From: Cladocopium goreaui
Taxonomy: Eukaryota; Sar; Dinophyceae; Suessiales; Symbiodiniaceae
Assembly: GCA_947184155.2 (NCBI GenBank)
Contig: CAMXCT020000835.1
Span: 62,001-126,000 of the forward strand
Length of the DNA: 64,000 nucleotides
Direction: 5' to 3'
The notes under the pieces are model-generated. The model was not told where the DNA came from. It was given only the letters and a program-made list of their open reading frames with translations, and did not search any database. Shown one piece after another: positions 397 through 64,000 of this stretch (its first letter is position 1; the number at the start of each line of letters is the position of its first letter). The position numbers and the translations under genes are program-made.

Positions 397-456
397 CGCC
401 CCGGCCGGAATGAGGAGGAAGAAGTAGATCGTGGCCACTGCAAAGCCATAACCGTC
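397..456 (-). CDS. Channel exon: start of S6
   Basis: Encodes DGYGFAVATIYFFLLIPAGA, the QD.xG...IYF stretch that begins S6 after the filter. Acceptor CCAG before GAC, donor GT. The next exon, expected to carry a FF..NL motif, is not visible in bases 1-396. Confidence 0.87.
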
Positions 457-574
457 CTGGAGACATGATCTGTAAATATGTGTCTCTACATCTACAGTAA
501 TTCATGTAAGATGTCATAGTAATATGATATTATATATATATACAATTATACATAATTATATGTGCACACAAATA

Positions 575-605
<31 letters not shown>

Positions 606-3600
606 ACACAGTCACCATGTGTAGGTGTATATATATATATATTATTAATACACACACACACAATATCTGTGTAATTCCGTGTGTGTGTGTGTGCATCGAA
701 TCTGTCCTGGATGCGATACATGACCTCAGCCAACTGACATGGTTTTTTAGGCAGTCACTGGGGTACCAAGGGGGTATAGATACCCTGGGGTAAACAACGG
801 TAAACATATAGGAAGATCTGGAAAAGCCATGGGGAAAGCGTTTTTTTTACCGGAAAATGATCTATATATGATCTACATTCGTGGTGGATATGTTACTATA
901 CAGATGGGTATATGTTGGGAGATCAAATATTATCTAACAAAGACGGTGGTCTAAAGCCAACGGTCATGGATCATGATATTCCCCATAAATATGGATATAT
1001 TAACACCTTTTCATTGCGAGAATAACATCGAATAACCATCCCTTTGATGAAAAATGGATGTTCGTCTCCAAAATTGTTTTGAACCATCCCCCCTCATCTA
1101 CACACGGTGCAAATGTGTTTTGTTTGATTATCAAATGTTTAGGGCCTTAAAATCCATTAATATACCGCATACCCGCTGGTAATCAAACCGGACAAGGGGA
1201 ATTTCTCCTAAGAAATGGAGGTGTTTGGTAAAAAATTGGATTTTACCATCAATTATGAGGTTTGACAATCAAACATATGGTGATCTAATTCATGAATGAT
1301 GGCTGGTTGATGATTATAGTCATGTAACAAAGATGTTCACCATCAATTTTGATGGATATAATTCATAAATGATGGTTGATCAGCCCCAAGTTATGAGGTT
1401 TTACCATCAGTTATGAGGTTTAAACATCAAACATATGGTGGTCTAGTTGACAAATGATGGTTGAACACTTAAAAGAAATAAGGTTGAGCCGTAACCATCA
1501 ATTATTCGGTCTAACATCTCTAAACATCTCTAAGCATCACCATGCGAGTTGACTTTAAAAAAGGCTATTCGCCCTGCCGCCATCATCCAAGTTGCATCGG
1601 TCCAGCCCTCCAGCGTCATGCATTGGAAGATGGTTATGAGGGCAGTGCCTTAGAGGCCCCCAGTGGTGGAGCTGCGGGTTTAGATTTACCCCATGAATAC
1701 TAAAGATATATAGACATATCTAATTAGCATAAACCGTAGTTAACCTAGTTCTAGACCAACTTAGCTAAGTATGGAAAAAAAAAAAACACCTTGCAGTGAG
1801 ATGGTCAACCTTAATATAAATACTAAAGATATGGGCGTGTGTGAAAATGCGGTAGACCTCTAAATGGCTATTTTCATAGAGCAAATGGTTCTAATCCAAT
1901 CGATTTAGGGGGAACACGATGTTCAATCAACGCCATATATATATACCACAAACCTTAGGTAATTGTGTTAGTTATGTTAATCATAGTAGTGTCAATTAGA
2001 TATATCTACCATAAAACATCTATAAACCATAGTTGACCTAGTTATAAACCATATAGATAGCTAGGTTAACTATATAGATAATCCAGTTATGTGCAAAAAC
2101 CAACTTAACTTGGTATGGAATACCCCTTGCAGTGGGATGGTCAACATGAAATCACAAATCGTCAAAGGGAGAACGAGACGGCTACCAATTATATATCGCA
2201 ATCTCTTTATCATGGAGTTAATTGTTGGGACTTAACCATCACACAAAGGGATTTAACCAATGGATCGTGGAATAGAACCAATCAACAATTTTATGGGGAT
2301 GTGATATTATGTAATAGGATATGAAAGCAACCGTATGTTTCAGTGCCTATTTTCATACAAACCCACAGAGTATTTGTTTGGCAGAGCAGACTCAGAAAAA
2401 AACGTCGAAGCTTGGACCAGAGGCGGCCAGGAAACATAGTGGTTGTAACATGTGGAAAAATCAGTCTTTGGTTTTCTCCGCCTGGTTTTTGGCGTGTTCT
2501 TCTTGGCCAGGAATGATAGGGCCGTTAGGGCTTACCCGGGCACCGCCGAATCGATAAACACTTCTTGCGAAGTTGACCCCACCGACCCTGGTTTAAGTGA
2601 ACATGCTGCAGGACAATTCCATTCAAACTCCATTAAACGATCAATTTCATGCTGAACAATCCATAATCCCAAAAACTATGGCAGACTCCTGGTTTGATCT
2701 ATATCTAATCATCATAAACCATAGTTAACCATAGTTAACCTAGTTCTAAAATTCTAAACCATAGTTGATCAATAGATAATAGGGGAAGAAAAAAAAAACA
2801 CGGAGTCTTCTCCCGAGCGCCCAGGCCAAGGTGGTCGAAACTGATCCACTCGCTCTCGGGAAAGACCTGGCGGGGGATCGGAGATCCACTGAAGCGGCAA
2901 CAAATGGAGGCCTTAAAGCATCAAACATGGAGAGTTTTCCATGATTTAGCCATGAAAAGTCCTCAAATTTGATGATCAATAGAAAAAAAAACTGGGGATT
3001 TGACATGATTTACCGACTTAAGATGATAATTTCAATGATTTTATATGTGTTGATCATCAAATATCATGATCAATAGATTGGTTTGAGATACAGTAATTCG
3101 ACAGAAAAACCTTGCTTTTAGTACCAAATATGGAGGTTTCTGGTACAGTACATGTTCCCATGACCCAAATTCTGGGATATGGGGAGAGTTCTTATGATGC
3201 CTAGCCACAGAAATTTGAATGGGCAAATATGACCAAGAAAATGTCAGAACATGATTGGTGGTGAATGGTTCGTCACTGACGTGTGGGATATGTACGTCCG
3301 TCTATTATATATATACATAGTGATGTAGAATTATATCATAGTAATTCACTAACCTGAAATCACGCTGTATTGGTATAATTCCCCTTACTAACCATTGCTC
3401 CAGTGAGGTCGCTATAATTCAACCATATTGTATATAATATTATTATTATATAATAATATGTATGATCTATCATACTTCATACATATCAACCCCTTAGCTC
3501 TAGCTGGTATGGCTCAAAAATGGGAGGAATCACCAATGATGCTCGTCACTTGCGATCCTCATCCCATTTCTATAGGGAGCAAAAATAAATACGTCTTTGA

Positions 3601-6600
3601 AACCAGCAACCAGAATCATCATTGGTTATATGAACCCATAAAAAGTCCCACCATAAATTTAAATCTAAATGGGATGAACATGCTGAACATCGTATTTGAA
3701 ACATTTGAAACCACCATGAATCAGCAACTACCAGTAGCTCCAAAACCATGAAGGATGCCCAACCAGCCTTTCGAGGTTCCGAGCCGCTGCACCAGGGAAA
3801 GCCACGCCTGATCCACTACGCGGAGACCACCATCAAAGAGTGCAACGTGTGGTCACTGAGGGTGCGACTGTCCACCATCAAAGACTGGACCTTGGCTTCA
3901 CAGCGTGTAAGTCAAGCCCTGAGACGTATGTTCGATAGACATAAATTTGGAAATTGGCATCTGAACAAGAAAATCAGGGTCGCTGGTTGGGGGGGTAAAT
4001 GGGCCCAAACATTCCAAGATATTCCAAACATGTTCAGTTTTAGCATGTTTTAGCTGATTTCCAGATCAAGAAATTTTAAGTTGCCGACCCAATCCAAGTC
4101 TATCCGATGGTAACTGCTGGAGGCTTCAGGGACTTCCGCCAACAGGAAAGCAAGGAGCTAGTTTGAAAGCCGGATCCCAAAACTACCATGCTTTCTCGTG
4201 ATCGATATTCCCTTGGTTTTTGTATGGTCTCGTTATTTCTTGTCAATCCTGATGTGGGAGTGGCTCAAAATGATCAACCCTAAAAATGGATGGTTTCCAT
4301 AATCCTTATAAGAACGCCAAAACAACGAATCCATTATGGATCCATTGCTACCCCAAGTTTGACCCATTCCCACAAGGATTCACAAGGTGGTGCCCCAAAC
4401 CGACGAACATAACTAACAATGGATGATGATAATCCGGAGTAGATTGGAGTAGATTGGTTCATATCATCACCCATAACCAACAACCATTGTACAATTTCCT
4501 CATATTGGCATGATATTGACATATATTGACCAACAACACATTCCCCCATATCATCCCCAATATCCGGGTATTGGGTAATCCTCATCAAGCAACGCTGTTT
4601 CGGTGGCACGATCCTAAAATCGCTCCGAGCAACGAAACTCTTCGTTGGTGTCCTGCGGATGGCCTCCACAATGCCCTTTCTGCCCAAGAGGACTGTCCTA
4701 CGGACACGAACGGCATCCCAAAGGATGCGTTGCGCGGAAAGTGCACAGTAGGTCCTGATCTGGAAAGATGGCTACAGTACTTATACTCCTAGATTGTCAT
4801 TGTTTTGAGATATGTTTTTTGTTGGATTTGGAAGAGTCCAATTAGTCCTCCATCAACATGTCCAAACAGATTGAAAGAGGTACCCAACAAGCCATGGAAC
4901 TAGCAGCCGCCTTAACACCGTGCGAACCTTAAATTATATCCAGATACAACTTCACTTCACCCTTCTTCATCAAGAATTCCCCCTCATCTCTTGCCCCAAG
5001 CAAGCTGCAAATCACGTACAATTCGTTCCGTCAACCAGCACACTGTACAATATTGTACAATATACCTTCTGGATCCTTCTGGATCCTTCTCGTAACTTAA
5101 CATTTCTAGATGAGTTATCTATTAGAAGTTGTGATTCAGTTGTGATTCTCCATAGCTAAGTCAAATTAAGGCAGGGTAAGTCCACATAGCAAACCAAAAA
5201 AAAATTGCCGTCGAAGGCCACCCTGGAAAAGTGACTCCATCTGCTCTTGTTACCCCGAGTTTATTCTCAATTTGTATGGCAAACCGATGAAAAAGTTTCA
5301 AAAACCATATGGGATTTGTGGCTTCCCCAAATATTCACACGAAGCAGTTGGGTTTAAGACCCATGTTTCATCATTTTGTCATAGTCCCATTTTCAGCTGG
5401 TTCATCCCGCTGTATCCAGGTGAATATCCCATGAATACCACCATTTTTTCTGGTGAAACCCCCATGTTTCTGGGTGAAATCGCTGCGGATCCGCGCCTCA
5501 CAGAGATAGCGTCCGCCACAAAGTCTCTCCTCCCCGGTGTAGGGCCAAGACCAACACCTGACTCAGAAAGGGTAGTGATTTATGGTGTAGGGCCATGATG
5601 CTGTGTGGATTCACTGGTGATTTATGTGGATTTAATGGTAGTTTACAGGAATTTAATGATCATAAGATGGATTTAATGGTGATTTATTAAGTTATTAAGC
5701 TATATTAAGTTATATATATATATATATAATGGATTATAATGGTATATGTGGACTTGATGTGGACTTGGGATGGTTCGCTGGGTTTTTTTATGCTGTGGTC
5801 CCCTGGATCGTTCGCAACTGCGACTGTTGTGATTTTCACCCCACTGGGAGATGATGGGATCTACCTTGATGTACATCCCAGGCTCCAGGAATCGTCAGGC
5901 AATGGAGAAAAAAACCTGGTTCGTCGGAAATGTTGTACCAGTTGTAGCCCTAAAATCCATGGTTGATCATCATTTTCCCCATGAAAAATGCCACTTTTGC
6001 TTCATTCACGATTTGCAGACTAGTCCAAATGTTGACAAAGTTGATGTTAATAACTTTCCCATGAAAAGTCATCAAGAAACCTCCATATCTTTCAGGGATT
6101 TCCCATGGATTTCCCACGGATTTCCCATGGATTTCCCATGGATTTCCAAGGCACTCCGTTCCGTTGGAACCCAACAACAGCGGTTGAGCGATGCTGCGAC
6201 AACCTGGGTACCGGGGTACCCCCAATAGCTGGATGGTTTATTTCAGGGAAAATCCTACTAACATAGATGATTTGGGGGTAGCCCTATGTCAGGAAACCCC
6301 CATATATATTTATGTATTAGACATAATCTCATACTACCATATATTTATGTATTAGAATGTATTAGATGTATCTAAATCTATATATCATATTTTATACTAG
6401 ACATGACATACTCGTCTTCACGTATATTAAATGTAATAATTACTACTTCCAGAGGTTTTTTGGATGGTTCTATTTGTTCGCTGTGATTCAATATCTGTCA
6501 TATCCTTTTTTCCAGGATACTGATGGACACTGGACATTCCATTCTCGTGATAATTTCAAGAAAAATAGAGGCAATCGGCAGTTGCTAGCTTAGTAGCCAA

Positions 6601-9600
6601 TGTCATGTTGTCTGTCACTTCGAAAAAAGGGGCTTGTTTGAAATTAGGGTACCCAAAATTTGATGGTTCGTCATCATTTTCCCCATAAAAAATGGCTATA
6701 CTCCTCCCCTTTCCACAGGACTTTTTTTACAGTCTCCGGCCGAGGAGCTACGATAGAAGACGCCGCCAAACAGCGAGATGCCTGCGGTTATTGGTTAAAT
6801 CCCCATGATGACATCGACCGTCTAACTTCCAGATGACATCGATGATCAGATTATTGTTGAAATGATGAGAGCCTGGATTAAATGCCCATTGTCATGTGGA
6901 GAAAAAATCTCATTTTACAGGGTTGCTCCCATCACCTAAGGTAATAGTGGATAATTTTGGTACCCTCCCCCCCTTGTGGCTATCATTTACCTCTGATAAA
7001 GTGAAGCAACCCTGTGTTTTTGTGGTTATCCACATTTTGGTTGCTTATTTATATCTCATCATATCCCATTATAGCCTCATTGTTCATGGTTAAATCATGT
7101 TGCAGTCCCCAGTTGTGTGGTACTACCAGCCCACTCATCCACTCCTCCGTAGCCACCCCCCCATCCCTGGTCGAGGTCGCCTAGGATTCCGAAGCTCACG
7201 AAAAGGAAGGCGGCCATCAGCGTGACGTTTCCTGAAGGGGTGGGATTAGGGAAGATCTTGGGAATTCATGCGGATATTGATGATTCTTGCGCATCTCTAA
7301 ATTGACATTAATCAATGTGGATCAATTACATCTTCAAATTGACAATCTATTCTTGGTATAATTTGGGATGTCAATTGGGATAACAGCAAGACAAAATTGG
7401 GAATTCGACCCAGAAAAAAGGTGGTATAGTGTGACATACTTGGGGGTTTTGCTTGTGACAAAGCCGGTACCCTGCTGTTCACATCTAAAGCAATAAATGT
7501 AGCTGAAATTCACAGATGTTCATCCCAAAAAAAAAAGTACCCTCTGGTAAACTAACAGCTTGCTATTGAAAATGGCCATAGAAATTTGAAATAGTTGATT
7601 TACCCATCAAAACTTGCGATGTTCCATAGTTTTTTGTAGGTTTGCCAGAGGGTAAACAAGACAGTTTTGACTCATCCGAAAATGGGAATGTTGGGAATGG
7701 CTGGTTTGGAAGTGGCTGAACTCAGCATGAAGTGGGTCATACGAATTCTGTCATAATCATAGTGAACCGGAGTGAAACAGTAGTTCTAATATGTTCCAGC
7801 CCCAATTACAATGTGTATATATATATGGTTATATATCAATATATTACAATAAGATATGAGTTCAACTGACAAAGATCCATTCTTGCAATCTGATGGGATT
7901 GATGCTTCGGAACAAAGTGAAAAAACTTTCCTCGTGGACTTGATGTCACCTATAGCTCGTACAAAGATGTACAAAGTACATGGGTTTGTCTGAAAATAGG
8001 GTATATTCCCAATGAAATAGCCATTTAATAGGGATAATGATCATTAACCATTGGGTTTAGGGGTACACAACATTTTCAGACACACCCACATTTCGGGGGA
8101 TGCAGACGCCAACCTCCAGTTTGCGTGTGGAGACAATGGATGCTGCGAATCACTGAGACGCGCACCGAGACGCGGCACGGAACTCAAGACCGTGTTCACT
8201 AGAACCTGCGGGGCCCGGTTTGATTTTGGCAAGGCGATTGATAGGTGATGGGTGGTTATGACCTATCAAATCCATTCAAATCCTATCTGAACACACTTTC
8301 ATTTGCGAATGCTGTAAGGGAAAACATGCAATTGCTTGCAAAACGATTTAACAATTCCTTGCAATATTGCTTGCCTGGCTAAGGGCTAAATGTGATTTTA
8401 AGGCCTTGATTTCGATGCAGCTGTAAGAATCTCAAATTAGGAAACGGCCTGATTCACTTCAATATGTGCTGTCTGCAACTCGCATGGGTTGAACTAGATA
8501 AAGATTCTCAACGATCCTCATGGAAGCGTCAGCCAGATTAGGCCTATACTTAGAATATACTTGGAGCTGGGTGTTGATGCAACCAAATCTATGATGCGAC
8601 CAAATATACGTAGATCATATGTGTCATCGCCTCGCAGTCCCAAAGAAACGACTCCGCTTGATCAGGCCTTCATCTGTGGCACGGCATTCAGGGAGCGCAA
8701 GGGTCGCAGGATACGAAACCTGGGTGCCGTTCATCCAATTCCCCCATTTTCAGACACACCATGGCTGTTGAAAATGGCCATAGAAATAATGGATTTACCC
8801 ATGAAAAATGGTGATTTTCCATAGTTATGTTAGTTTACCAGAGGGTAAACAAGACAGCAAGCCATCTCTAACATTCTTACAGTGAGGTGGGTGATGTAAA
8901 CCCATCCAATTGGAGGTGCAGGCTTTTTGGGTCATCATGGATTGCTGATCCTAGTAGTTACTCACCAACTTAGTGGACATGGAATGTTATGCCATTACAA
9001 TTGTATATACATATTATATATATGTATATATATATATTCATGATCAAAGTCTGCTTTTGTGAGCTGGACGAGGTCTTTATGTTTTACATTGGTTTACGGT
9101 ACCTGTGCTGTGTGTCAAACAAAAATTGTCTCCCCCCCCGCCCCAAAAAGAACTGTGGTTCTAGAAAAACATGTTTCAATTGAAATTGCCACAACTTGGG
9201 GCGTGGACACTCGCAAATATCCCATGGAACCAGTTGTTGGTGAAATCAGCATTTTTGAAACTTAAATCCATGTCTTAAAAGTTGAATTCCTACTTGTTCA
9301 TGGCTGGTTCCCCATTTCTTGGGGGTCAAAATCCATCGGGGTTTCGAAGTTTCCATTGGGGATGCTGGGGCCCGAGACATGCGCAGGAATCCAACGCCTT
9401 CTGTACTCGTCATGGCCTAGAGATGTTGGAGGTCAAAGCAGCAGCTGTGTACATCATACGTTTACACTATGCACTATGTATACATGTAGCTATATTATAC
9501 ATACACAATTTAATACCTATATATATAATTACATGTATATTAATTTATACCATCGTTGCATAGTTATATAGTATATACAATCATACAATCATACATGTTT

Positions 9601-12298
9601 GTATGATTTGTATGTATACACTGTATGCTGTTGATTTCACTACTGAGTATCACATAGTATCACTACTGCAAGACATGCGATGCAACCTAGTAACGTAGTA
9701 TGACTTCATTATGCACGATTGCTCTTACTAATAATATCTAATAATCTTATATATATACTAAAACCAATGGCGGACTTACCAGCTGCAAACAGGAGCAGGC
9801 TGCAGCATCAAGAACTTGGGATCGGGCGTTCGTCATTTGAAGAATACCAGTGACAACCACGATGAAGTCCAACCAATTCCATGCCTCACAGCATGTCGGA
9901 GACTAGAGAGCCTGGTCAAAGGTACGAGTAGTTATTCACGTTTGTCTGTGCTGAGGGGAATGCACGTGGATTCTTCATCATGATCAGCCGCATGCAACCT
10001 CTTGCGCTCCTAAAGGATCCTGTATACTGTACTCGGTGGTTCACTTGAAGCCGCCAACCACTATCCCAGGTGCTCGGAAGGAATTCCTGCCGCAAGAAAA
10101 GGCAGCAACCGGGCAGCCCAACATCTCGAAGATAGGAGGTTTCATCCAAGACAAAGCCAAAGGCAATGACCTCCATCATGGCGACTGGGGTGTTTTTGGG
10201 GGGGTCAAAACCCAGGGATTTTAGCACCAAAATAGCGTGGATGGATTGGATTCATCCCAAAATGGGCAAACATATAACATGATGCCAAGTGAACGTAAAT
10301 GGATCTTCGTCTCCCCAAGACTGGCCCAACAATTTCCAATAAGATCCAAGATAACTACATTACCCCATCCTCACATCGCTGGAGAAATTCTGTATTCGAA
10401 CATCTGGTACCATCTGGATACAGTTTCTGTGCGAGAAAACCGCGAGCCTGCTGTTCAAACCATTGGTTTGCTTTGAGTCCAGTTGGGAATCAATACGACT
10501 CAAAGTGAGTAGCTGAATCAACATCAATACATGACATCCACTTCCGGTGGTATTGAACAAAATAAGCCCAAAGTCGATGACCCCGTAAGGAGCACCAAAG
10601 TCCAACAGAAGTATCAGTCCAGTCGCACCTTCAGGACAAACTCCAGAGTAAAGAAACCTCAGCGAAGTCTCCGCGATGGCTAAGAGGTCATCAGCCCAGA
10701 ATTTCGTTGGCCAAAGAGCGCTGATACCGGTGGTGTTTGACAACTTTGCTAAGCTTCATGCAATAGGAATGACCAAAAAAATACATAAAAACAGATTGAA
10801 ACCTCCAATATCCGGAAATTTTGCAGATGGGCATCTCCCAACTTTGAATCTTGAATAGCGGCCCCTTGGCCAGGTGTTTCTCTGAGAAGCAAGAACAGCT
10901 TGGGCCAAGTGTCGACTGAATTTGAAAGCCTGGTGCCTGGAATCCAAACGAAACATATCTCCAGAGTGGCGCGTAGACTAAACTGCTAGATGTTTTTGGC
11001 GTTTTTTGCTTTCTTCTTTGAACGTTATTCACCGTTATTCCACAATGTTCTTGGCCATCTGTTTCCATCTGTCAATGTATTCCTTCTGATATTCCATGTG
11101 AGTCAAAAATTTCCCTATCCCATCCCATTCTGCTTGGTTCATCGGATTAGGTATCCCTTCGATGGGAATGACAGCCGATAAAACAGGCAGTTTCCAATCT
11201 ATATATAAATCAACAGGGGATAGCAAGGGGTGTATATATATATATATATATGCATAATATATGCATAATACCTTTCGTGGCTCACAGATGTTCGGCGAAA
11301 TCTCATGAGATCCCCATGATCTCCCGCTAAAAACCACCATTTTTCCTTGGTTTTCCTCAGTGAAATCGCCATTTTGCTTGGTTGAATCCTGTCCCTTGGA
11401 GTTGGTGGTTTTTCGTCCAAAAAACATGTGAGGATCGGATCAAAGACGTTGTCCGAGATCCAATTGAAGCCTGGCGTTTCTGGGAAAAACGGAGCTTTTT
11501 ATGGGACGTTTTTCGGGAAAATGATGGGAAAAAATGGCTGATTTATGGAGTTTCTGGATGGAATTTCTTGTAAAAATGGAAATGAATCTTCAAAAATCCA
11601 CCAGAGATATATTCATATTTCGATTGAGGATGTTCCTATTAAAATCAGGGACAGCAGCAGTTCAGATCCGGATGTAACCATCAAAACGTGTGATTTTGCC
11701 AGTGACTCATGGACATGCGTTGATCCAATTAATGGGGGGGGATCTCGGAAATGATGTTTCACATCACTGGACTATTGGATGGACAAAGATTGTCACTGAA
11801 CAGCAATAATAACCCATCCCTAATGGTGGTTTATTGATGTTTATTGGGTAATGGGACGAACAAATAGATGATACGTCTCAGAGTCCAAGATATTGAAGGC
11901 CTGTCCACATTCAGTTCTGCTGGAGCTGCACAAAAAGAATACTTGACTTATTAGGAGAGTCTTGTTAAAATCTAGAGACCCTCACCTACCTGACAGGTGG
12001 GGGAGAAAAAAAAAGCACTTCACCATTTCCTGATCAATTTGACAGACCCGGTTCAACCATGTTCAACCCCTTTTGCTGCCAAGTACCTAAATAAAAAAAA
12101 AAGTACCTAAGTTTACCCAGCAGTTTGCACTACTTGTAAAAAAAATAATGATGTCGCTGCGAAGCATATTCGGATCAAACTGACCAAACGGAAGGCCTGA
12201 GTCAGATTCACTGCGGTAGTCATAGGACGCCAAACATAGAGAATTGAAGATGATGAGGGACAGGATAAACCTGAATCGCACCGCTTCCCTTGACGAAG
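397..12298 (-). CDS. Voltage-gated cation channel gene, one complete S1-S6 domain split over about 14 exons (3' part beyond window)
   Basis: Membrane channel, probably of the four-domain calcium/sodium type. Reading right to left, exons encode S1 (FILSLIIFNSLCLASYDY), S2 (FFTLEFVLK then VIAFGF), S3 (WNWLDFIVVVTGIL), S4 (FRILRPLRSLNAVP, arginine every third residue), the S4-S5 linker (VLVNTVLSSVPRL), S5 (LMAAFLFVSFGIL then ISLFGGVFY), the pore helix and filter (ITIFQCMTLEGWTD) and the start of S6 (ATIYFFLLIPAGA). Order, spacing and motifs match the family, and nearly all junctions keep phase. The TLEGW glutamate corresponds to the calcium-channel selectivity position. The S4-S5 region most resembles domain I of T-type channels and the pore loop domain I of L-type channels, but which domain this is cannot be fixed here. 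Introns use GT, GC and possibly GA donors, and almost every acceptor is AG followed by G. The rest of S6 and any later domains lie left of base 1; the N-terminal exons are not firmly identified. Confidence 0.87.
457..1580. other. Channel intron with AT microsatellites and duplicated segment
   Basis: No coding signal seen. Bases 530-650 hold TA and GA/TA simple repeats and about 650-700 a CA/GT run. Around 1240-1480 a segment containing AATCAAACATATGGTG occurs twice about 160 bases apart. Confidence 0.5.
1581..1648 (-). CDS. Channel exon: pore helix and selectivity filter
   Basis: Encodes TALITIFQCMTLEGWTDATWMM, read here as two parts: TALITIFQC and MTLEGWTDATWMM. TLEGW is the calcium-channel type filter with glutamate at the ring position. 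Acceptor AAG before GC, donor GC. The closest family pattern is FQCITMEGWTD of L-type domain I. Confidence 0.95.
1690..2800. repeat. Dispersed element family with TAACCTAGTT and CACCTTG motifs
   Basis: Related blocks at about 1725-1815, 2020-2145 and 2705-2775 share ATAAACCATAGTTAACC, CCAACTTAGCT-like motifs and a CCTTGCAGTGGGATGGTCAA end. The same family recurs near 18,440-18,860, 44,390-44,900 and 56,870-57,080, some copies ending ACCACCTTGTAT. Confidence 0.5.
2821..2866 (-). CDS. Channel exon: lead-in to pore helix
   Basis: Encodes VFPESEWISFDHLGL plus one base. The FDHLG segment is the usual FDN..-type lead into the pore helix. GC donor; the leftover G plus GC of the next exon gives glycine before TALITIFQ. 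Confidence 0.77.
5502..5557 (-). CDS. Channel exon candidate: extracellular turret between S5 and pore
   Basis: Bounded by CAG and a GTGAGG donor. In the phase set by the previous exon it reads C then VGLGPTPGRRDFVADAIS, and it ends in phase 0, as the next accepted exon requires. There is no family motif, so the call rests on phase and splice sites. Confidence 0.45.
6731..6781 (-). CDS. Channel exon: end of S5 and outer loop
   Basis: Encodes ISLFGGVFYRSSSAGD. The LFGG motif is the usual outer end of S5, followed by the start of the extracellular turret. Acceptor CAG before GC, donor GT. Confidence 0.92.
7181..7231 (-). CDS. Channel exon: first part of S5
   Basis: Encodes NVTLMAAFLFVSFGIL, a hydrophobic S5 helix. 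It has a GC donor, and its last base G joins GC of the next exon to form glycine, giving FGILG then ISLFGG. Acceptor CAG before GA. Confidence 0.95.
7538..7656. mobile_element. Short inverted-repeat element, family B (CCCTCTGGTAA ends)
   Basis: Starts TACCCTCTGGTAAAC and ends in the complement GCCAGAGGGTAAAC, with AT-rich non-coding DNA between. A 3' half copy lies at about 8766-8857. Non-autonomous MITE-like structure in a channel intron. Confidence 0.6.
7981..8088. mobile_element. Short inverted-repeat element, family D (TTTGTCTGAAAAT ends)
   Basis: Begins TGGGTTTGTCTGAAAAT and ends ATTTTCAGACACACCCA, a near-perfect terminal inverted repeat around an inner inverted region. Another full copy is at 58,535-58,669, and partial ends occur near 8745, 35,715 and 36,940. 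Confidence 0.65.
8166..8205 (-). CDS. Channel exon: S4-S5 linker
   Basis: Encodes VLVNTVLSSVPRL plus the first base of a glycine codon completed by the next exon. The sequence is the amphipathic S4-S5 coupling helix. Acceptor CAG, donor GT. Confidence 0.95.
8668..8719 (-). CDS. Channel exon: S4 voltage sensor
   Basis: Encodes FRILRPLRSLNAVPQMK, with arginines at every third position and the RPLR motif common to calcium and sodium channel sensors. Acceptor CAG before G, donor GC, ending in phase 0 exactly where the next exon starts with VLV. Confidence 0.95.
9372..9397 (-). CDS. Channel micro-exon candidate: start of S4
   Basis: One frame reads VGFLRMSR, which supplies the first two S4 arginines in the expected three-residue spacing before FRILRPLR. 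The acceptor is AAG before GC. The 3' junction is unresolved: one extra residue is needed before FRIL, and no canonical donor gives the right phase. Confidence 0.5.
9828..9884 (-). CDS. Channel exon: S3 helix
   Basis: 57 bases in phase 0 encoding AWNWLDFIVVVTGILQMTN, the S3 helix with its conserved aspartate (WLDF). Acceptor GAG before GCA. The donor drawn is GC; a GA donor four bases further on would also fit and would give a better phase to the following S4 piece. Confidence 0.9.
10123..10170 (-). CDS. Channel exon: end of S2 and S2-S3 loop
   Basis: 48 bases in phase 0 encoding VIAFGFVLDETSYLRD. The acceptor is GAG before GTC and the donor is GT. The product continues FFTLEFVLK from the previous exon and leads into AWNWLDF of the next, as in the ion-channel family (IAFGF...YLRD.WN). 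Confidence 0.92.
10629..10657 (-). CDS. Channel micro-exon: S2 centre, FFTLEFVLK
   Basis: A 29-base exon between GAG and a GT donor. It encodes FFTLEFVLK, the signature core of S2 with its conserved glutamate and lysine. A TGA lies in frame just upstream of the acceptor, so the exon cannot extend further 5' in this frame. Confidence 0.85.
11426..11470 (-). CDS. Channel exon: start of S2
   Basis: 45 bases encoding FNWISDNVFDPILT, acceptor CAG before GC, donor GT. It ends in one base, T, which joins GT of the next exon into a cysteine codon, giving DPILTC followed by FFTLEF. This matches the usual S2 pattern of a four-domain channel. Confidence 0.85.
12158..12298 (-). CDS. Channel exon: S1 helix and S1-S2 loop
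   Basis: Open in one frame with SSREAVRFRF leading into the S1 helix FILSLIIFNSLCLASYDY, then a polar extracellular loop ending FGQFDPNMLR. The acceptor is TTCTTCAG and the donor is GC. One leftover base (A) pairs with GC at the start of the next exon to give serine, so phase is kept. The 5' edge could instead be an internal AG a few codons in. Confidence 0.8.
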
Positions 12299-23576: not shown

Positions 23577-24000
23577 AATGTATATAATATAATATAATAT
23601 AATATAAATACAGTATAATATAAATATAATATAATATAATATAATAAAAATATAATATAATACAAATATAATATATAATATTAATATAATATTAATATAA
23701 TATAATACAAATATAATATAATAAATATAATATAATATAAATATAAATATAATGTAATATAAATATAAATATAATATAATATAAATATAAATATAATATA
23801 GTATAATAGAATATAAATATAATATAATATAAATATAATATAATATAAATATAATATAATATAATACAAATATGATTTAATATAAATAAAATATAATATA
23901 AATAAAATAATATAATACAAATAGAATATAATATAATATGAATATAAATATAATATAAATAAATAAAATATAATATAATACAAATATAATACAATATATA
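23577..24000. repeat. TATAATATAAATA microsatellite, about 420 bp
   Basis: Almost pure TATAA, TATAAA and TATAC-type repeats. The long minus-strand frames rich in Y, I and L across it are artefacts. Confidence 0.95.
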
Positions 24001-42180: not shown

Positions 42181-45100
42181 CTGCCACCACCGAAATCATC
42201 ATGACTTCTATCAACTATCCCTTGATGGGTGCTATGTTACCATCCCAAATGGCCGATTCATTTTTTTGATTGAAGATTCAGATGTTGTTTTTCGTTTCAG
42301 TAAATATCTAGTTGTTTAGGTGGTGTGCTTGACTTTTTGGAAATGGTGGTTCTTCTTTCAATCTCGACAATCATCCAATTTACGGAAGTTCTTGAATCTA
42401 CAGCAGGAACGTTTTCACTGAATGGATGGCTCTGAAAGAGACGATTCTTTCAAGAACAAGGTGACTATGAGCTGTCAACTGTGGCCAGTCACACCTACGG
42501 CGGAAGAGACCAGGGGTGTGAATGAATTACAGTACATGCAGTATATGGCCTTTATCAACAGATCAGCTGGCCAAAGCGGCTAACCGTTACGGCTAACCGA
42601 TCCCAAATTGTCTCAATGTGGAAAGCTTTTCAGGATTGGTCTCAAAACTGAAACCTCTACGGTGTAGCAACTCGTGTTTGAACTGAGTTGTTGATTGTGG
42701 TTCTCGGTCACCACAGCTGTGGGACGGACAATCATCCACTGCATCCCAATCAAGTCCTAGCTTAGTTTTGCCCAGTTGTGGGCAATGACAATTCCATGTT
42801 CACTAGTTGCATTCCCACTTAGACTTACGGGTACTTATGAAACCCCAAGTTAATTTTTCGCACTTCTCTGTTATCTGAAATCAGATTTTTTCTTATATGT
42901 ATTTTGCACACATTGTTACAGGGAGTTGACAACCCCCGAATCACAAAACCTAATCACTTGGGATCATCCCAGTACGTTGAACCAACCAGAATGATGTCAT
43001 TGAACAGTTAACTTACAACTTATAATGGCAAACAATAATAGTAATAGTAATAGTAACAGTAATAACAGTTAATTTACATCATTGAAAACATCCATAAATA
43101 GTAATCAATCATAGTCACAGATTATCAATTGTGACAATAAAAACAACGATCATACGCTCTGGTAATCAAAAATAGAAATGGAACATCCTCCATTTAGTTT
43201 GATGATGATCTGAAACCACTTAAATGCCAATGTATCATTAGTTTTTGGGTTTTCCCTGCCAACCATGCTTGATAACACTGGAGGGTAAAAATGTTAATTG
43301 GGAAAATGAATATTACTCATTACAAGGTAAGCATGGTAAGCATGATCGTATCATAATCATTGGTAGACTGGCAACACTAATCACCACTAATCAAGAGTAC
43401 CATAATCAGTAGCTAATTAATCGCCGTGGTTAAGTAAACACCAGTTACTAGTTAATCAATTGGTTCAGTTCACCAACGGTACTAATGATTATCACCATCA
43501 TTCACGATTCATCACCATTAATCGCCATTAATCGCCATTAATATCCATGAACTACTACTAATCACCAGCGATTTATTGAGGGTTACTATTAATCACCTGT
43601 AATTTACCAAGGTTTACCATCAATCATCACGATTAGTTAGTTCACCACGATGAACTAAGGGTTACTAATCATTAGTGTAAAGGGTAATCATTAATCATTT
43701 GCCATGATGACTAAGGGTTACCAATTACCATTCATTAATCACCACAATATCCAATGATAGTCCATTGAATCACCATTTTTGTTGCTTCAATGTGTTAAAT
43801 CACCATGGTCGATGTTAGATATCTACCACTATAGTGAGATATCTACCATATATGACCATGACCATATATATACCATTATATATATATCACTATAGTTAGA
43901 TATCTATGGTGATGATACCATTATATATATATATATATCATTATATATATATATCATTATATATATATATCATTATATATATCATTATATATATATCATT
44001 ATATATATATCATTATATATATATCATTGTATACATATATATATATATATATATCATTGTACATATATATATATCATTGTACATATATATATATATCATT
44101 GTATATATATATATATCATTGTATATATATATATCAAATTATATATCATTATAGTTTACCATACATAACTATTATATGGTGACCATTGTGGTTCACCAGG
44201 ACACCCGAGCCGACCGCCGAAACGCCAAGCCACTGCGGACACCCCTCGCAGGGCCATGCCACGAAGCACTGCCGTGGCCATCGGCCAAACGCCGCTCTTC
44301 TCACAGGCGCTGATGGAGGCGTTGTAGGTCACCCGGTTGGGCTTCCTAGGTGGGAAGCCCCCATAGTTGTGGTAGATATGTAGAAATATGTAACCAAATA
44401 TGGTAGATATCTAACTATAATTCAATTTAACTATAGTGAATAGATGTTGGTTTATAAACCCATGGACCCCATGGTTAGATAATAATTATACGTGTAATAG
44501 TTAAATAGTTATAAATTAATAAGTAGTTATAAACCAAACCAGCCCTAGACATAGTAATGATATATATATACATACATAGTTGTCTATGATAGATATAACT
44601 ATGGTAGATAAGTGTTTGGATTTAGTAAATAATGTTTATGGTGTATGTATATATATATATATCTCTCTCTCTTGTTACTATATCTACAATAGTTATCAGC
44701 CAAACTAGCCATTGTTGATATACAGTTTGCGGTAGGTATATGCATAGATGTACATATATATATATATATATCATATATCACATCACTATAGTTATGTTTG
44801 TTTAAATATAAATCCATATAACAAATCAGTCAAAACTCTACCATAGAGCCAACTTAGCTTAGCCAAATACACCAACTTAGCTATAGGTTGTAGGCGCCAC
44901 CTTGGAGGGAAGAAAACATGCCGGAGGGGGTGCGTAGCTTCCACTGTGGACGGAGATGTGCCAAGGGTGAAGTTACATGGGATTAATATGGACGAATGGA
45001 TATGAATGGAGTAGAATCATCCTGCAATAATGGGAATGTAGGATATGTAGGTCCCTCGTGATAGAGAAGAAGAAACATGAAAAAAACATATTTTTTGATG

Positions 45101-48100
45101 GTGGCTGTGAAATCAGCCAGTCTGGCTGGTGGTATACCTATCCCTCTGAAAAATGATGGGGTTCGTCAGTTGGGATGATGACATTCCATTCCCACAATCT
45201 ATGGGAAAGTCATAAAAGCCATGGTTCCAAACCACCAACCAGATACATGGCTGTGAAATCCATTGTAATGCCATTATATTTGATGGTGCCAGTTGGATTC
45301 ATGGATCTTCACTCACTATGTGGCTAGCTTCAACTTCGCGGAGAGCATCAAACTTGCCAGTGCCAAGGCGTAAAGCCACCTGGTGAAACCAGCCAGATTT
45401 TCCCAGGGAATATACTTACTGGTGCTTAGTCTTAGTAAGGAATGGATTGCTGGGGGTTGCTGGGATTATTCATAGTTAGCCAGTGGATCATTCCCGAAAA
45501 TTCCCTACTAAGCACCAGTAAGTATATGGAAATATGGGAAAAGTCCTGTAAATTTCCCCACCAATCCATTGAATTTACATCACGTCAACTTCGATTTCAC
45601 TGGAATGGATTGATGTTGGACTTCTCCGCAGTTTTCCAGTCAAGCGGTGTGCTAGTAGTAAATTACTTTGCTTCGAGTGATCCCCACCATGACATTTCAA
45701 AACAGCTTGTTGACACCACTTTTGTCTGAAGCTTTTGTCACGGGACTTTTGCCCAACTAACTATCCCAATCATTTGTTTCACCTGGCAGGTCATTGTGCA
45801 TGTCAGTCTGTCAAACAGGATATAAACATGTCAGTGGGCCATGTGAAGTAAACTCCAGAGCTCTCAACAGGTTTGCTTAAACATGACCAAACAGGCCAGT
45901 GGACCACCTGAGCCAAACAAACAAACATGCCCAAACATGTCAGCACACCGCCTGTCAAACATGTTTGTAAAAACACGACTGAAACAAGCCAGTGGACCAC
46001 CTGAACCAAAGTCAAAAGCTCGCAAGCTCGTGTGTAAACTAGACAAAACCATGCCAGTGTTACTTCACCAGATCGCTGCAGCTGCAACTCTCTATTCCTC
46101 CACCAGACCTCTTCAATCAAAACCGATTAGGTCCCACAGGTAGAGCAACGTGTCAGGCCCATGCCTGCCCCGGACCTCTTCAGTCAAAACCGATTAGGTC
46201 CCACTGGCAGAGCACTGTGTCAGGATGCTTGCAATGCATCATAGACAGGCCAGGACTGCAGCCGCTCCAGCGTCGAAGCAGCTTTGGTTTCCAACTTGTC
46301 AGTCAGTTCTCGCAAGTAGGTAGGAGGGCCTCTGCGTAAAAGCTCCTCCACTTGCTCCGTGAACCCCAGCAAGATGAGATTCTTCAGTTTGCGGGCACGC
46401 GTCAGCATGACATAGATGGCTAGCCACCAGTCGGCATCCTCTAGGCCACCACCACGACGCAAATCAGCCAGCACACCTCCGTCCAAAGTCAAGCCTTGCG
46501 CGCTGTAAGCAGTGCGCAGCATGCCATGCAAAAGAGGAAACTGCCAGCGAATCACTTCAATTTTCTCGGTTTCCTCGCCTAGCTTCAAATCAATTTTGAA
46601 CTCTGCATGCACCAATTCCACAAAGAACAATGTCTTTGCGTCAGTTGTGTGATCGGCCACATTCTGAAACTTTTCTTCCCACGTCTGCAACAGAGCATCT
46701 TCCATGGGCGAATTCTTTCCTTTAAGTAATTTCACCCAGATACCTTTGGCCATCTAGTCCGGAAAAAAATGACAGAATCCAGGTTCCCGACGGTCCAGGC
46801 GCTTCTGATCTTCATGGTGCAAATCCACTTTCACTACCACTGCCAGTTTGTCTTTAACCAATCCAAGGTGTGGAGCCAAGACATCCGCCAGTCGCACAAC
46901 CATGTTCTCGTGCACCAGTAGCATGCCTTGCAATTTGCCAGTGCGATGCGGGTTTGGAACAGTGAGCAGCTGATGTGTCAGCTGCTTGTCTATGGCTTTA
47001 TTTTTTCTGGAATGCCTTTGGTCAGCAGCTTGCAAACAAAATAACGGCACATCCAGGTCTTGCGCATCTCGATTTGCCCGTTCCACCATGCTGCGAGCAA
47101 TGTTCTCCCAATACATTCCAATGACGTGACCATGCTTGAACAAGTCCGTGGTTAGTTCTTTCTTGCAATTTTCGATTTTGACTGTCTCAAGCATCAATCC
47201 AGCATGAGATCACTTCAAGTAATTTGTAGTAACTTGCTGTAAGATGTTGCCTGTCTGAGCGTCTTTGCAAACAGCTCCAAAGGTACAGAAGTGGAAATGT
47301 CTCTGTCCGCCCCAGTGACTCTGTCATCTGTTCAAACTGATTGCTTCAAACTTTGCCACCTGCAAAGTAAGAAGTGGCATTGCCCCGGTCACTCTACCAC
47401 ACACGCGCGAGTTTGCAAGTAATATATAACATACTTGTCTGACATTCTTTCTAACTTTCTTCTGCACATTCTTTGTCCCATATCTTCCTACATGAGGTCC
47501 GGCGAGGAACACTTGGCGTGGATACTCGCGGTTGAGGTCCGGCAGGGAACACTGGGCGTGGATGGTCGTGGTTGAGGTCCGGCAGGGAATGAGGTCCGGC
47601 AGGGAACACTGGGCGTGGATGGTCGTGGTTGAGGTCCGACAGAGAACACTGTGCGTCGAGGGTCGCGGTTGAGCAGGAGGAGGAGGAGAGGAGAGGAGGA
47701 GAGGAGCAGGCAACTGACATAAAATCTAACAACCCTCACCTGGCAGGTGGGGAAAAATATTCAATAGCCATTCTTACCACTCAGGCGCTTTCCAGAGAGA
47801 CTTTGTATATCTGAACCCCCAAAAGCACTTTTTCCTGTTAGAAACTCACTGTCAATGTCAATTGACCAAAAACAAAGGGCATGTGTTCCAAGATTCCCCT
47901 GCCCAACTTGATCCCAAGTCACGGCGCGGAATCAGCGGTGGGATCTGTGACAGCAGTCTTGCGGGTGATCAGGGCAGCATTGCAACCAATCCGAGAAAAG
48001 GAGATGCCCTGTAGGGCCATCTCAAACAGCAGCGACAAACTGAGCTTCCACTGCTGTTCTCTGGTGACGGCTGAGATGTTGGACCTCAGGTGCTCAAACT

Positions 48101-60268: not shown

Positions 60269-60935
60269 CTGCATAGATGGGGCGGCCGGCACCACGTGCG
60301 CTCCGGTTCAGGATGAAGGAACGTAACTGGTGCCTGGTCAAGACCCCAAGCGTTCCCATCTCAATACTATAGCCGACCGGCAGTTAGAATATGATCCAAA
60401 GGAATCCATGGATATGGATTGACGTCCAGATAATAGCATCCATACCAATTTCGTCCCCGGGGAAAATGCAGTTAGAATTCCAAAAATACAACAATAGTTA
60501 GAATATAAATAAGCAACATATATATATATATGTATGTATAAATATATATATATATATATTGTACAGTATAGGATTATACACAAAATGAATGAACATTTTA
60601 GCATCGGCCGGTATGTGTCAGAAACCTCATGCATTTGAAGGTTAGTTTGTACAATATCACTAGTTTGCAATGTGGCTGGGAGAAACTGATGCAGATAGAA
60701 TATAGAAACTAACCATAAGAAACATCTATCAGTCTCAATGCTTTGCAGATAAACAACTATGAACAATTATGATAAACGACCAATATATAACAAATGTATT
60801 TTCCGAAGAAAAAAACACCTTTGGATGCAACCCATCCATCAACACGTGTGCACTTTCGGGTGTGTGCGCATGATGCAACGCACAGTACAATACGGGTAAC
60901 GCGCACACACAGAGTAACCTGATACATATGAACAA

Positions 60936-63900
60936 TAGTTTGTCCAATATCACTGGTTTGCACGAAGGTTGGACGAAAGTCATGCAGTTAGAATATGGGA
61001 ATGAATGCAGGTTCGCAGTTCGCACCATCTCACTGCCATACTTCAAGCAGGCAATTGCAACCAAACAACCTGACAGTATACAAACTGAGACAATGCAACC
61101 CATGTGGTGCAACCCAAACATCAACACGTATTTGTTCAATACCACTGGTTTGCACGAAGGTTGGAAAAAAACATGCACTTAGAATATGGGAAGTAATGCA
61201 GGTGCGCACCATCTCACAGCTTTATTTTTAAGCAGGCAGTTACAACCAAGCAACCTGCCAGTATGCAAATTGTATCAAATTGCAACTATGCAACCCATGT
61301 GGTCCAGCCCAAACATACACACTAGTTTGTCCAATGCCATTAGTTTGCAAAAGGTTGGAAGACAATCATGCAGGTGGGATGCGGGTAATAATGGAGGTTC
61401 ATACCATTTCACTGCTGTACTTCAAGCAGGCAGATACAACGAAACAACCTACCGCTATTCAAACTGTGACAATGCAACCCATGTGGTGTAACCCAAACAT
61501 CAACACGTATTTGTTCAGTACCACTGGTTTGCACGAAGGTTGGAAGAAAATTCATGCAGTTAGAATATGGGAATGAATGCAGGCGCGCACCATCTCACAG
61601 CTTTTTTTTTAAGCAGGCAGTTACAACCAAACAACCTGCCAGTATGCAAATTGTATCAAATTGCGACAATGCAACCCATGTGGTCCAACCCAAACATACA
61701 CACTAGTTTGTCCAATACCATTAGTTTGCAAAAGGTGGGAAGACAATCATGCAGGTGGAATGCGGGTAATAATGGAGGTTCATACCATTTCACTGCTATA
61801 CTTCAAGCAGGCAGATACAACGAAACAACCTACCGCTATTCAAACTGTGACAATGCAACCCATGCGGTGTAACCCAAACATCAACACGTATTTGTTTAAT
61901 AGCACTGGTTTGCACGAAGGTTGGAAGAAGTTCACGCAGTTAGAATATGGGAATGAATGCAGGTGCGCACCATCTCACAGCTTTATTTTTAAGCAGGCAG
62001 TTACAACCAAACAACCTGCCAGTATGCAAATTGTATCAAATTGCGACAATGCAACCCATGTGGTCCAACCCAAACATACACACTAGTCTGTCCAATACTA
62101 CGGGTTTGCATCAAGGTTGGAAGAAAGTCATGCAGTTAGAATATGGGAATTGATGCAGGTTCGCTCCATCTCACTGCCATACTTCAAGCAGGCAATTGCA
62201 ACCTAACAACCTGACAGTATACAAACTGAGACAATGCAACCCATGTGCCCATGTGGTGCAACCCAAACATCAGCACGTATTTGTTCAATACCACTGGTTT
62301 GCACGAAGGTTGGGAGAAAAACGTGCAATTAGAATATGGGAATGAATGCAGGTTCGCACCATCTCACAACTTTATTTCTAAGCAAGCAGTTTCAACCAAA
62401 CAACCTGCCAGTATACAAGTTGTGCGAAACTGTGCCAACGCAACCCATGTGGAGCAACCCAAATATCAACATTGCTTGTCCAATACTACGGGTTTGCATC
62501 AAGGTTGGAAGAAAGTCATGCAGTTAGAATATGGGAATTGATGCAGGTTCGCTCCATCTCACTGCTATACTTCAAGCAGGCAATTGCAACCTAACAACCT
62601 ACAAGTACCAGTATACAAACTGTGACAATGCAACCCATGTGTTGCAACCCAAACATCAGCACGTATTTGTTCAATACCACTGGTTTGCACGAAGGTTGGG
62701 AGAAAAACATGCAGTTAAAATATGGGAATGAATTCAGGTTCGCACCATCTCACAACTTTGCTTCTAAGCAGGCAATTTCAACCAAACAACCTGCCAGTAT
62801 ACAAGTTGTGCGAAACTGTGCCAACGCAACCCATGTGGAGCAACCCAGATATCAACATTGCTTATCCAATACTACGGGTTTGCATCAAGGTTGGAAGAAA
62901 GTCATGCAGTTAGAATATGGGAATTGATGCAGGTTCGCTCCATCTCACTGCTATACTTCAAGCAGGCAATTGCAACCAAACAACCTGACAGTATACAAAC
63001 TGAGACTATGCAACCCATGTGGTGCAACCCAAACATCAGCACGTATTTGTTCAATACCACTGGTTTGCACGAAGGTTGGGAGAAAAACATGCAGTTAGAA
63101 TATGGGAATGAATTCAGGTTCGCACCATCTCACAACTTTGTTTCTAAGCAGGCAATTTCAACCAAACAACCTGCCAGTATACAAGTTGTGCGAAACTGTG
63201 ACAATGCAACCCATGTGGTTAAACCCAAACATCAACATTTGCTTGTCCAATACTACGGGTTTGCATCAAGGTTGGAAGAAAGGCATGCAGTTAGAATATG
63301 GGAATTGATGCAGGTTCGCTCCATCTCACTGCTATACTTTAAGCAAGCAATTGCAACCTAACAACCTACAAGTACCAGTATACAAACTGTGACAATGCAA
63401 CCCATGTGGTGAACCCAAACATCAACATTTGCTTGTCCAATACTACTGGTTTGCATCAAGGTTGGAAGAAAGTCATGCAGTTAGAATATGGGAATTGATG
63501 CAGGTTCGCTCCATCTCACTGCCATACTTCAAGCAGGCAATTGCAACCAAACAACCTGACAGTATACAAACTGAGACAATGCAACCCATGTGCCCATGTG
63601 GTGCAACCCAAACATCAGCACGTATTTGTTCAATACCACTGGTTTGCACGAAGGTTGGGAGAAAAACGTGCAATTAGAATATGGGAATGAATGCAGGTTC
63701 GTTTCTAAGCAAGCAATTTCAACCAAACAACCTGCCAGTATACAAGTTGTGCGAAACTGTGCCAACGCAACCCATGTGGAGCAACCCAAATATCAACATT
63801 GCTTGTCCAATACTACGGGTTTGCATCAAGGTTGGAAGAAAGTCATGCAGCTAGAATATGGGAATTGATGCAGGTTCGCTCCATCTCACTGCTATACTTT

Positions 63901-64000
63901 AAGCTTGCAATGCCATACTTCAAGCAGGCAATTGCAACCAAACAACCTGACAGCATACAAACTGAGACAATGAAACCCATGTGGTGCAACCCAAACATCA
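60936..64000. repeat. Satellite array of about 190-bp units, continuing past the window
   Basis: About 16 copies of a 185-196 bp unit. The marker CATGCAGTTAGAATATGGGA or a variant appears at about 60,981, 61,172, 61,367, 61,553, 61,748, 61,933, 62,129, 62,322 and on to 63,840. Three sub-types alternate: one with ACCACTGGTTTGCACGAAGG, one with ACTACGGGTTTGCATCAAGG, one with CATTAGTTTGCAAAAGG. The many open frames across it are translated repeats. Confidence 0.97.

Follow-up and report, generated by a model that had tools for sequence, protein, structure and literature searches.

The closest described relatives of the locus considered here, a predicted channel gene on the minus strand of contig C835 (CAMXCT020000835.1) of the dinoflagellate Cladocopium goreaui, are the four-domain voltage-gated channels. 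The survey of Pozdnyakov et al. (2018, PMC5824947) covers 277 eukaryote four-domain channels, with dinoflagellate clades XI, XVII and XXIV and a lone branch, and includes channels of dinoflagellates that carry four pfam00520 domains. In this survey E/E/E/E is the dominant selectivity filter and the S4 segment is arginine/lysine-rich in most four-domain channels. The C835 gene shares with these channels the domain order, the Ion_trans fold, the acidic P-loops and the arginine-rich S4 segments, but only two domains are seen here. The stretch analysed, referred to as the window, is C835:62001-126000 (64,000 nucleotides, plus strand), with a G+C content of 38–50% in 2-kb steps.

The published description of the C. 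goreaui genome (1.2 Gbp, 44.38% G+C) gives a mean exon of 120.4 bp, a mean intron of 838.8 bp, donors of GT (36.6%), GC (43.6%) and GA (19.8%), and an AGG acceptor in 96.1% (PMC9412976). Elsewhere, GC/GA-AG boundaries are reported at 25–74% of Symbiodiniaceae introns, with intron gain via introners (PMC11453091), and coding sequence is described as richer in G+C than intronic sequence (PMC11114475). In this lineage small exons and GC and GA donors are to be expected of a four-domain channel; what is new here is this gene copy, its exon map, its micro-exon and the differing introns of a paralogue. We know of no characterised Cav-like channel from this lineage (no search was aimed at this point).

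The minus strand of the window appears to carry domain I of a working four-domain, Cav-like and probably Ca2+-permeable channel gene of a Symbiodiniaceae-type dinoflagellate; from the sequence, this reading is given a probability of about 0.9. In such a channel membrane depolarisation would shift the S4 helices, and their movement would open a pore lined with acidic side chains and admit Ca2+. Domains III and IV would lie beyond the contig end, and splicing of the transcript would use GT, GC and GA donors and AG-G acceptors. The very short exons may be the product of inherited introns together with further introns present only in the C835 copy. A Cav-like channel would also be a candidate component of Ca2+ signalling in these algae, to whose lineage coral symbionts belong.

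The domain I model consists of 14 predicted exons, 13 of them inside the window (12270-12197 to 456-406) and one just outside it (Table 1). When joined they give 715 nt in a single open frame of 238 codons that extends from S1 to the end of S6; exon sizes are 18 to 105 nt, with a median of about 50. An earlier note, made from the letters of the window, had proposed a voltage-gated channel domain from S1 to early S6 across tiny exons, with the motifs WNWLDF, FRILRPLR, LFGG, TLEGW and IYF. The motifs are present in that order on the minus strand, both on reading and in the exon model, and the domain is recovered at 12270-406 in an open frame with a score above that of shuffled sequences. Two features that the note had expected to the left of base 1 of the window, an S6 end with FF..N and a further domain, are both present there. 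The protein comparison that it suggested for the joined exons agrees as well: Cav3.2 is the best PDB match and Ion_trans scores about 155 bits.

The in-phase model of domain I gives 154.7 bits with Ion_trans (Pfam; cut-off 25 bits), 155.4 bits with three extra residues and 147.2 bits when the micro-exon is omitted; domain II gives 100.9–103.7 bits. PKD_channel (polycystin; cut-off 22.4 bits) comes second to the domain I values of 154.7–155.4 bits with 25.9–28.3 bits, and polycystin is not the best family. For the PDB comparison of domain I the model lacking the micro-exon was used. The top match is Cav3.2 (277.3 bits, 1.2e-81), with 242 bits for L-type channels, at most 181 for Nav and 49 for NALCN among the best 60 of 112 matches. 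By individual domain of Cav3.2, the domain I model matches domain I with 63.6 + 48.9 bits, domain III with 77.1, domain IV with 57.8 and domain II with 46.4. Domain II has Cav3 as its top PDB match (142.6 bits), with 79.7 bits for Cav3.2 domain II versus no more than 30.6 for each other domain. From these per-domain Cav3 matches the two domains are taken to be the first and second of a four-domain channel; both Ion_trans domains are on the same strand, in the order I then II. The animal Cav3 (T-type, low-voltage-activated) channel is the best PDB match for both, a placement by best match only.

Both selectivity filters are acidic, with E in each: TLEGW in domain I, as in Cav3.2, and TGENW in domain II, where Cav3.2 has TQEDW. 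The Nav channels would call for D in the domain I filter (DEKA), but the residue here is E. For the NALCN/Cch type an arginine-poor S4 and the nearest sequence likeness would be expected, but the S4 segments of both domains are arginine-rich, with an arginine at each third residue. The S4 of domain I, FLRMFRILRPLR, is arginine/lysine-rich, as is that of domain II, ALRTFRLFR followed by VPR or VLNK. Two other loci of the same genome, L004 and L006, have Ion_trans like this gene, but each is one long frame with one domain and hence of a different kind. L006 displays EF-hand-like repeats after S6, a feature in which it presumably resembles EukCatA.

The second domain (S2 to pore) is found 35.5–42.8 kb to the left of window base 1. 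Its pore exon VSIFQIMTG is 25 nt long, and the corresponding exon of the paralogue on contig C71, VTIFQIMTG, has identical ends. The exons of the linker between domains I and II, the place of the AID motif in high-voltage-activated Cav channels, were not recovered by homology. Codon and hexamer scores trained on long frames of the genome failed to separate known exons.

A search of the genome (1,165,616,438 bases, 6202 contigs) with the draft domain I sequence yielded 13 matches (14/14 candidates scored): the C835 exons, C5306:112362 (E-value = 1.5e-4), C71:289512 (E-value = 0.05) and three weaker places. A spliced-alignment program, described below, finds domain I at C71 on the minus strand (score 90.9; plus strand 18.6) and at C5306 on the plus strand (84.6; minus strand 20.2). 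Adding the C835 sequence to the profile raises these scores to 262.3 and 103.7, respectively. Domain II is also present at C71. No close relative was found in the long frames of 28 loci around Ion_trans matches (97 matches are listed in the genome). Over gap-free codons, C835 and C71 have 152 of 193 residues identical. The proportion of differing synonymous sites (pS) is 0.70 (dS about 2, near saturation) and that of nonsynonymous sites (pN) is 0.137 (dN 0.15), i.e. dN/dS is near 0.08. This shows a protein under selection, as a mean over both branches. The third domain I paralogue, L039 (C5306:112077-113731), is more distant; it reads FFTLECAIK..RDPWNWIDFLVV..ARVLRPLRSLTAVPGIR and is without the RD-AWN intron.

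Could the model be no more than short open frames that were strung together by eye and line up by chance? The first hand join of the exons matched Cav channels in the PDB and gave 60 bits with Ion_trans, and since a hand join is open to bias, the spliced-alignment program was written. It uses GT, GC and GA donors, AG acceptors and an intron penalty, with a profile made of PDB channel segments and four Ion_trans frames of the same genome. Short stop-free frames are abundant, and under the weak intron penalty shuffled sequences average about 56. The domain I score (C835:60001-80000) is 161.0 on the minus strand versus 52.5 on the plus strand, and exceeds all 30 dinucleotide shuffles (mean 55.9, standard deviation 5.7, maximum 73.9). 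Under a stricter intron penalty it is 83.9 against a mean of 22.1 (standard deviation 2.4, maximum 29.7, n = 30). For domain II the score is 116.3 against 52.1 (standard deviation 5.5, maximum 62.8), and 76.5 against 22.2 (standard deviation 2.3, maximum 27.1) with the stricter penalty (n = 30 each). Thus 0/30 shuffles come close to the observed score for either domain at either penalty, and the draft sequence led to two paralogous loci; the probability of a chance chain is negligible. In addition, phmmer hits scoring over 8 bits within C835:1-156000 fall 16 to 1 in favour of the minus strand, although several of these 16 are one exon matched by several queries.

A channel gene copy that is decaying into a pseudogene would account for the large introns and for the loops and the domain II S6 that were not found, but neither a stop nor a break of phase interrupts the 14 exons, and dN is 0.15 versus a dS of about 2 over the 193 codons shared with C71, a ratio that averages both branches and is compatible with recent decay. 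Such a copy is considered very improbable. There is likewise a small chance that the gene is a half-length channel of two domains, as only two were found in C835:1-156000. These two, however, match the first and second Cav domains, in that order. Beyond the domain II pore 19 kb of contig remain, as against 35 kb between domains I and II, so that domains III and IV should lie off the contig. The published dinoflagellate channels with four domains (PMC5824947) also argue against a half-length gene.

Several points weigh against a working four-domain Ca2+ channel as modelled here. No third domain was detected in C835:1-156000 (12 overlapping steps of up to 20 kb, both strands; the highest plus-strand score was 34.4). 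The domain II S6 was sought by pattern, by profile and by likeness to C71 and was not found, nor did the program find the domain II S1. The domain II S4 donor is ambiguous: the paralogue favours a GT donor after ..RLFR, which gives 100.9 bits with Ion_trans versus 103.7 with the other donor. Ca2+ permeability, for which an acidic filter residue would be expected in all four P-loops (EEEE or EEDD), rests on two of the four. Exons may be missing from the loops S1-S2, S3-S4 and S5-pore of domain I: compared with Cav channels the S1-S2 loop is short, and there is a gap of 3.9 kb between the S5 end and the next exon. S1 and part of the joins were picked by eye, and the exon model is predicted from the genomic sequence. 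Finally, later exon choices favoured AG-G acceptors, a preference that the first program run did not have.

All 14 domain I exons have AG-G acceptors, a figure that is not independent because of that preference; in the program run without it, 9 of the 11 exons overlapping the final set start at AG-G. The donors are GC (7), GT (6) and GA (1). Donor and acceptor usage of the model resembles the C. goreaui rules. The earlier note supposed that gene finders without GC/GA splice rules would probably miss or break the gene and implied that the find was novel. The C. goreaui annotators adapted their programs to GC/GA donors, such donors are the rule in the lineage (PMC9412976), and four-domain dinoflagellate channels had already been reported (PMC5824947); neither suggestion is supported.

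Comparison of intron positions in the C835 and C71 copies was read by hand from the exon models and covers only exons found in both; all positions are predicted. Five in domain I are common to the two copies (LK-VIA, RD-AWN, QMK-VLVN, IL(G)-ISL and LIP-VTS), as are two in domain II (LW(S/A)L-V and MT(G)-ENW), a total of seven. An eighth, R-VLNK, would be common to both if C835 used the GT donor that follows ..RLFR; here the acceptor agrees and the donor is ambiguous. Five introns are present only in C835 (M-FRI, L(G)-NVT, L(G)-TAL, WTD-VMY and RIQ-DGY) and three only in C71 (V(L)-GAF, E(G)-W and FI-A). Between the beginning of S2 and the pore of domain II there are 53 kb in C835 versus 17 kb in C71. 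As there are only two copies, intron gain and loss cannot be distinguished. The gene offers a clean case for studying how introns are gained, with two ancient paralogues of nearly the same protein whose predicted introns differ in the S4 sensor, S5 and pore.

Within the sequence analysed, the introns of domain I are not copies of a single element. A dispersed repeat about 100 bases long matches parts of two of them. This repeat is found at window positions 8764-8857 (intron between the two S4 exons) and 7562-7664 (intron between the S4-S5 linker and S5 exons), elsewhere on C835, and in L023, L039 and L042. It is interior to introns and not at their ends.

The micro-exon VMYRIQ follows the domain I filter. 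At its place C71 reads EGWTDIMYRVQDSYDF, with IMYRVQ. The program chose the micro-exon with a domain I-like profile and not with the general profile. Against IMYRVQ it scores 28, a value equalled by 0/2000 shuffles of the 1139-base gap (best shuffle 20); against the Cav3 string IMYYVM it scores 16, which 14/2000 shuffles reach. Its addition lifts the Ion_trans score from 147.2 to 155.4 bits. Earlier models had a read-through, ATWMMA, after EGWTD, and this was swapped for the micro-exon after comparison with C71. ATWMMA (1595-1578) results if the pore exon runs on for 18 nt to a second GC donor and the micro-exon is skipped; it has the same length as VMYRIQ, and each form joins in phase to S6. 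That both forms are made, so that splicing would exchange six residues at the channel pore mouth, is improbable: the scores against the paralogue and the Cav3 string are -1 and -1 for ATWMMA, versus 28 and 16 for VMYRIQ. With exons of 18 and 25 nt, the gene is a clean case for how exact splicing is kept at such sizes.

Table 1. Predicted exons of domain I and segments of domain II (positions are those of the window unless C835 is given; remarks name the C71 paralogue where it bears on the feature).
Feature	Amino acid sequence	Position	Strand	Donor	Remarks
S1	FILSLIIFNSLCLASYDYRSESDS	12197..12270	minus	GC	picked by eye, not by program
S2, start	FFTLEFVLK	10629..10657	minus	GT	program; C71 FFTLEAMLK, same intron position after
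S2, end	VIAFGFVLDETSYLRD	10123..10170	minus	GT	program; intron positions on both sides common to C71
S3	AWNWLDFIVVVTGILQ...LQL	9780..9884	minus	GT	3′ end less certain
S4, first half	..GVGFLRM	9379..9416	minus	GT	5′ end less certain
S4, second half, and linker	FRILRPLRSLNAVPQMK	8668..8719	minus	GC	next intron position common to C71
S4-S5 linker	VLVNTVLSSVPRL	8166..8205	minus	GT	C71 counterpart VLVNTVISSVPKL
S5	GNVTLMAAFLFVSFGIL	7181..7231	minus	GC	program
S5, end	GISLFGGVFYRSSS	6741..6781	minus	GC	5′ intron position common to C71
Before pore helix	VFPESEWISFDHL	2827..2866	minus	GC	program found 3′ part
Pore helix and selectivity filter	GTALITIFQCMTLEGWTD	1596..1648	minus	GC	
Micro-exon, 18 nt	VMYRIQ	707..724	minus	GA	AG-G acceptor; after filter TLEGW
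S6, start	DGYGFAVATIYFFLLIP	406..456	minus	GC	intron LIP-(V/L)TSFFLLNVALAVVDEA common to C71
S6, end	VTSFFLLNVALAVVDEA...GPAVP	C835:61137-61063	minus		program; roughly 0.86 kb beyond the left end of the window
Domain II S2	DFLATCEIVFLVIFCIEM	C835:26486-19208 (domain II)	minus		spliced-alignment program
Domain II S3	CFDGIIVTVSVVQ	as above	minus		spliced-alignment program
Domain II S4	FTALRTFRLFR	as above	minus		spliced-alignment program
Domain II S4-S5	VLNKLASRWPSFRVLLKAM	as above	minus		spliced-alignment program
Domain II S5	SLVLYICTLMFMQLFNRKF	as above	minus		spliced-alignment program
Domain II pore	ANFDTFLWSL-VSIFQIMTG-ENWNTIMY	as above	minus		spliced-alignment program

The earlier note is corrected on two points: the S4 join is FLRM-FRILRPLR with a GT donor, and the residues after EGWTD come from the micro-exon and not from read-through. 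The first S4 join, SR..FRIL, required a CC donor or a 2-base exon and was dropped for a GT donor after CGCAT. In C71 the S4, LGFFRVFRALRPLR, is in one exon and collinear without a gap with C835, which supports the C835 join VGFLRM-FRILRPLR. Residues AGD after RSSS in earlier models were removed in the final in-phase model.

The Ion_trans alignment of the joined model begins at profile position 7 and includes the S1 exon. The ends of the S3, first S4 and S5-end exons are less certain. The C71 counterpart of the S3 exon, AWNWLDFVVVLT, terminates earlier than that of C835. For the S5-end exon an alternative GT donor after 6731 is possible, but it is out of phase with the next exon. The place equivalent to the exon preceding the pore helix reads NFDNIG in Cav3 and MNFDNII in C71, and the exon with the pore helix and filter is the top single-exon channel match (25.3 bits).

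Outside the channel exons, no phage match was found in window positions 9001-9950, and there was no Rfam match at gathering score in the whole window. Long AT-rich simple-repeat arrays are present at 23582-24000 and 43864-44153. Two adjoining minus-strand open frames of 177 and 151 aa at 46220-47209 have no Pfam match at an E-value of 0.01; we take them to resemble the end of a PIF1-like helicase. Positions 60931-63904 hold a tandem repeat with a 381-base unit in about 7.8 copies (88% matches), which gives long but repetitive plus-strand open frames.

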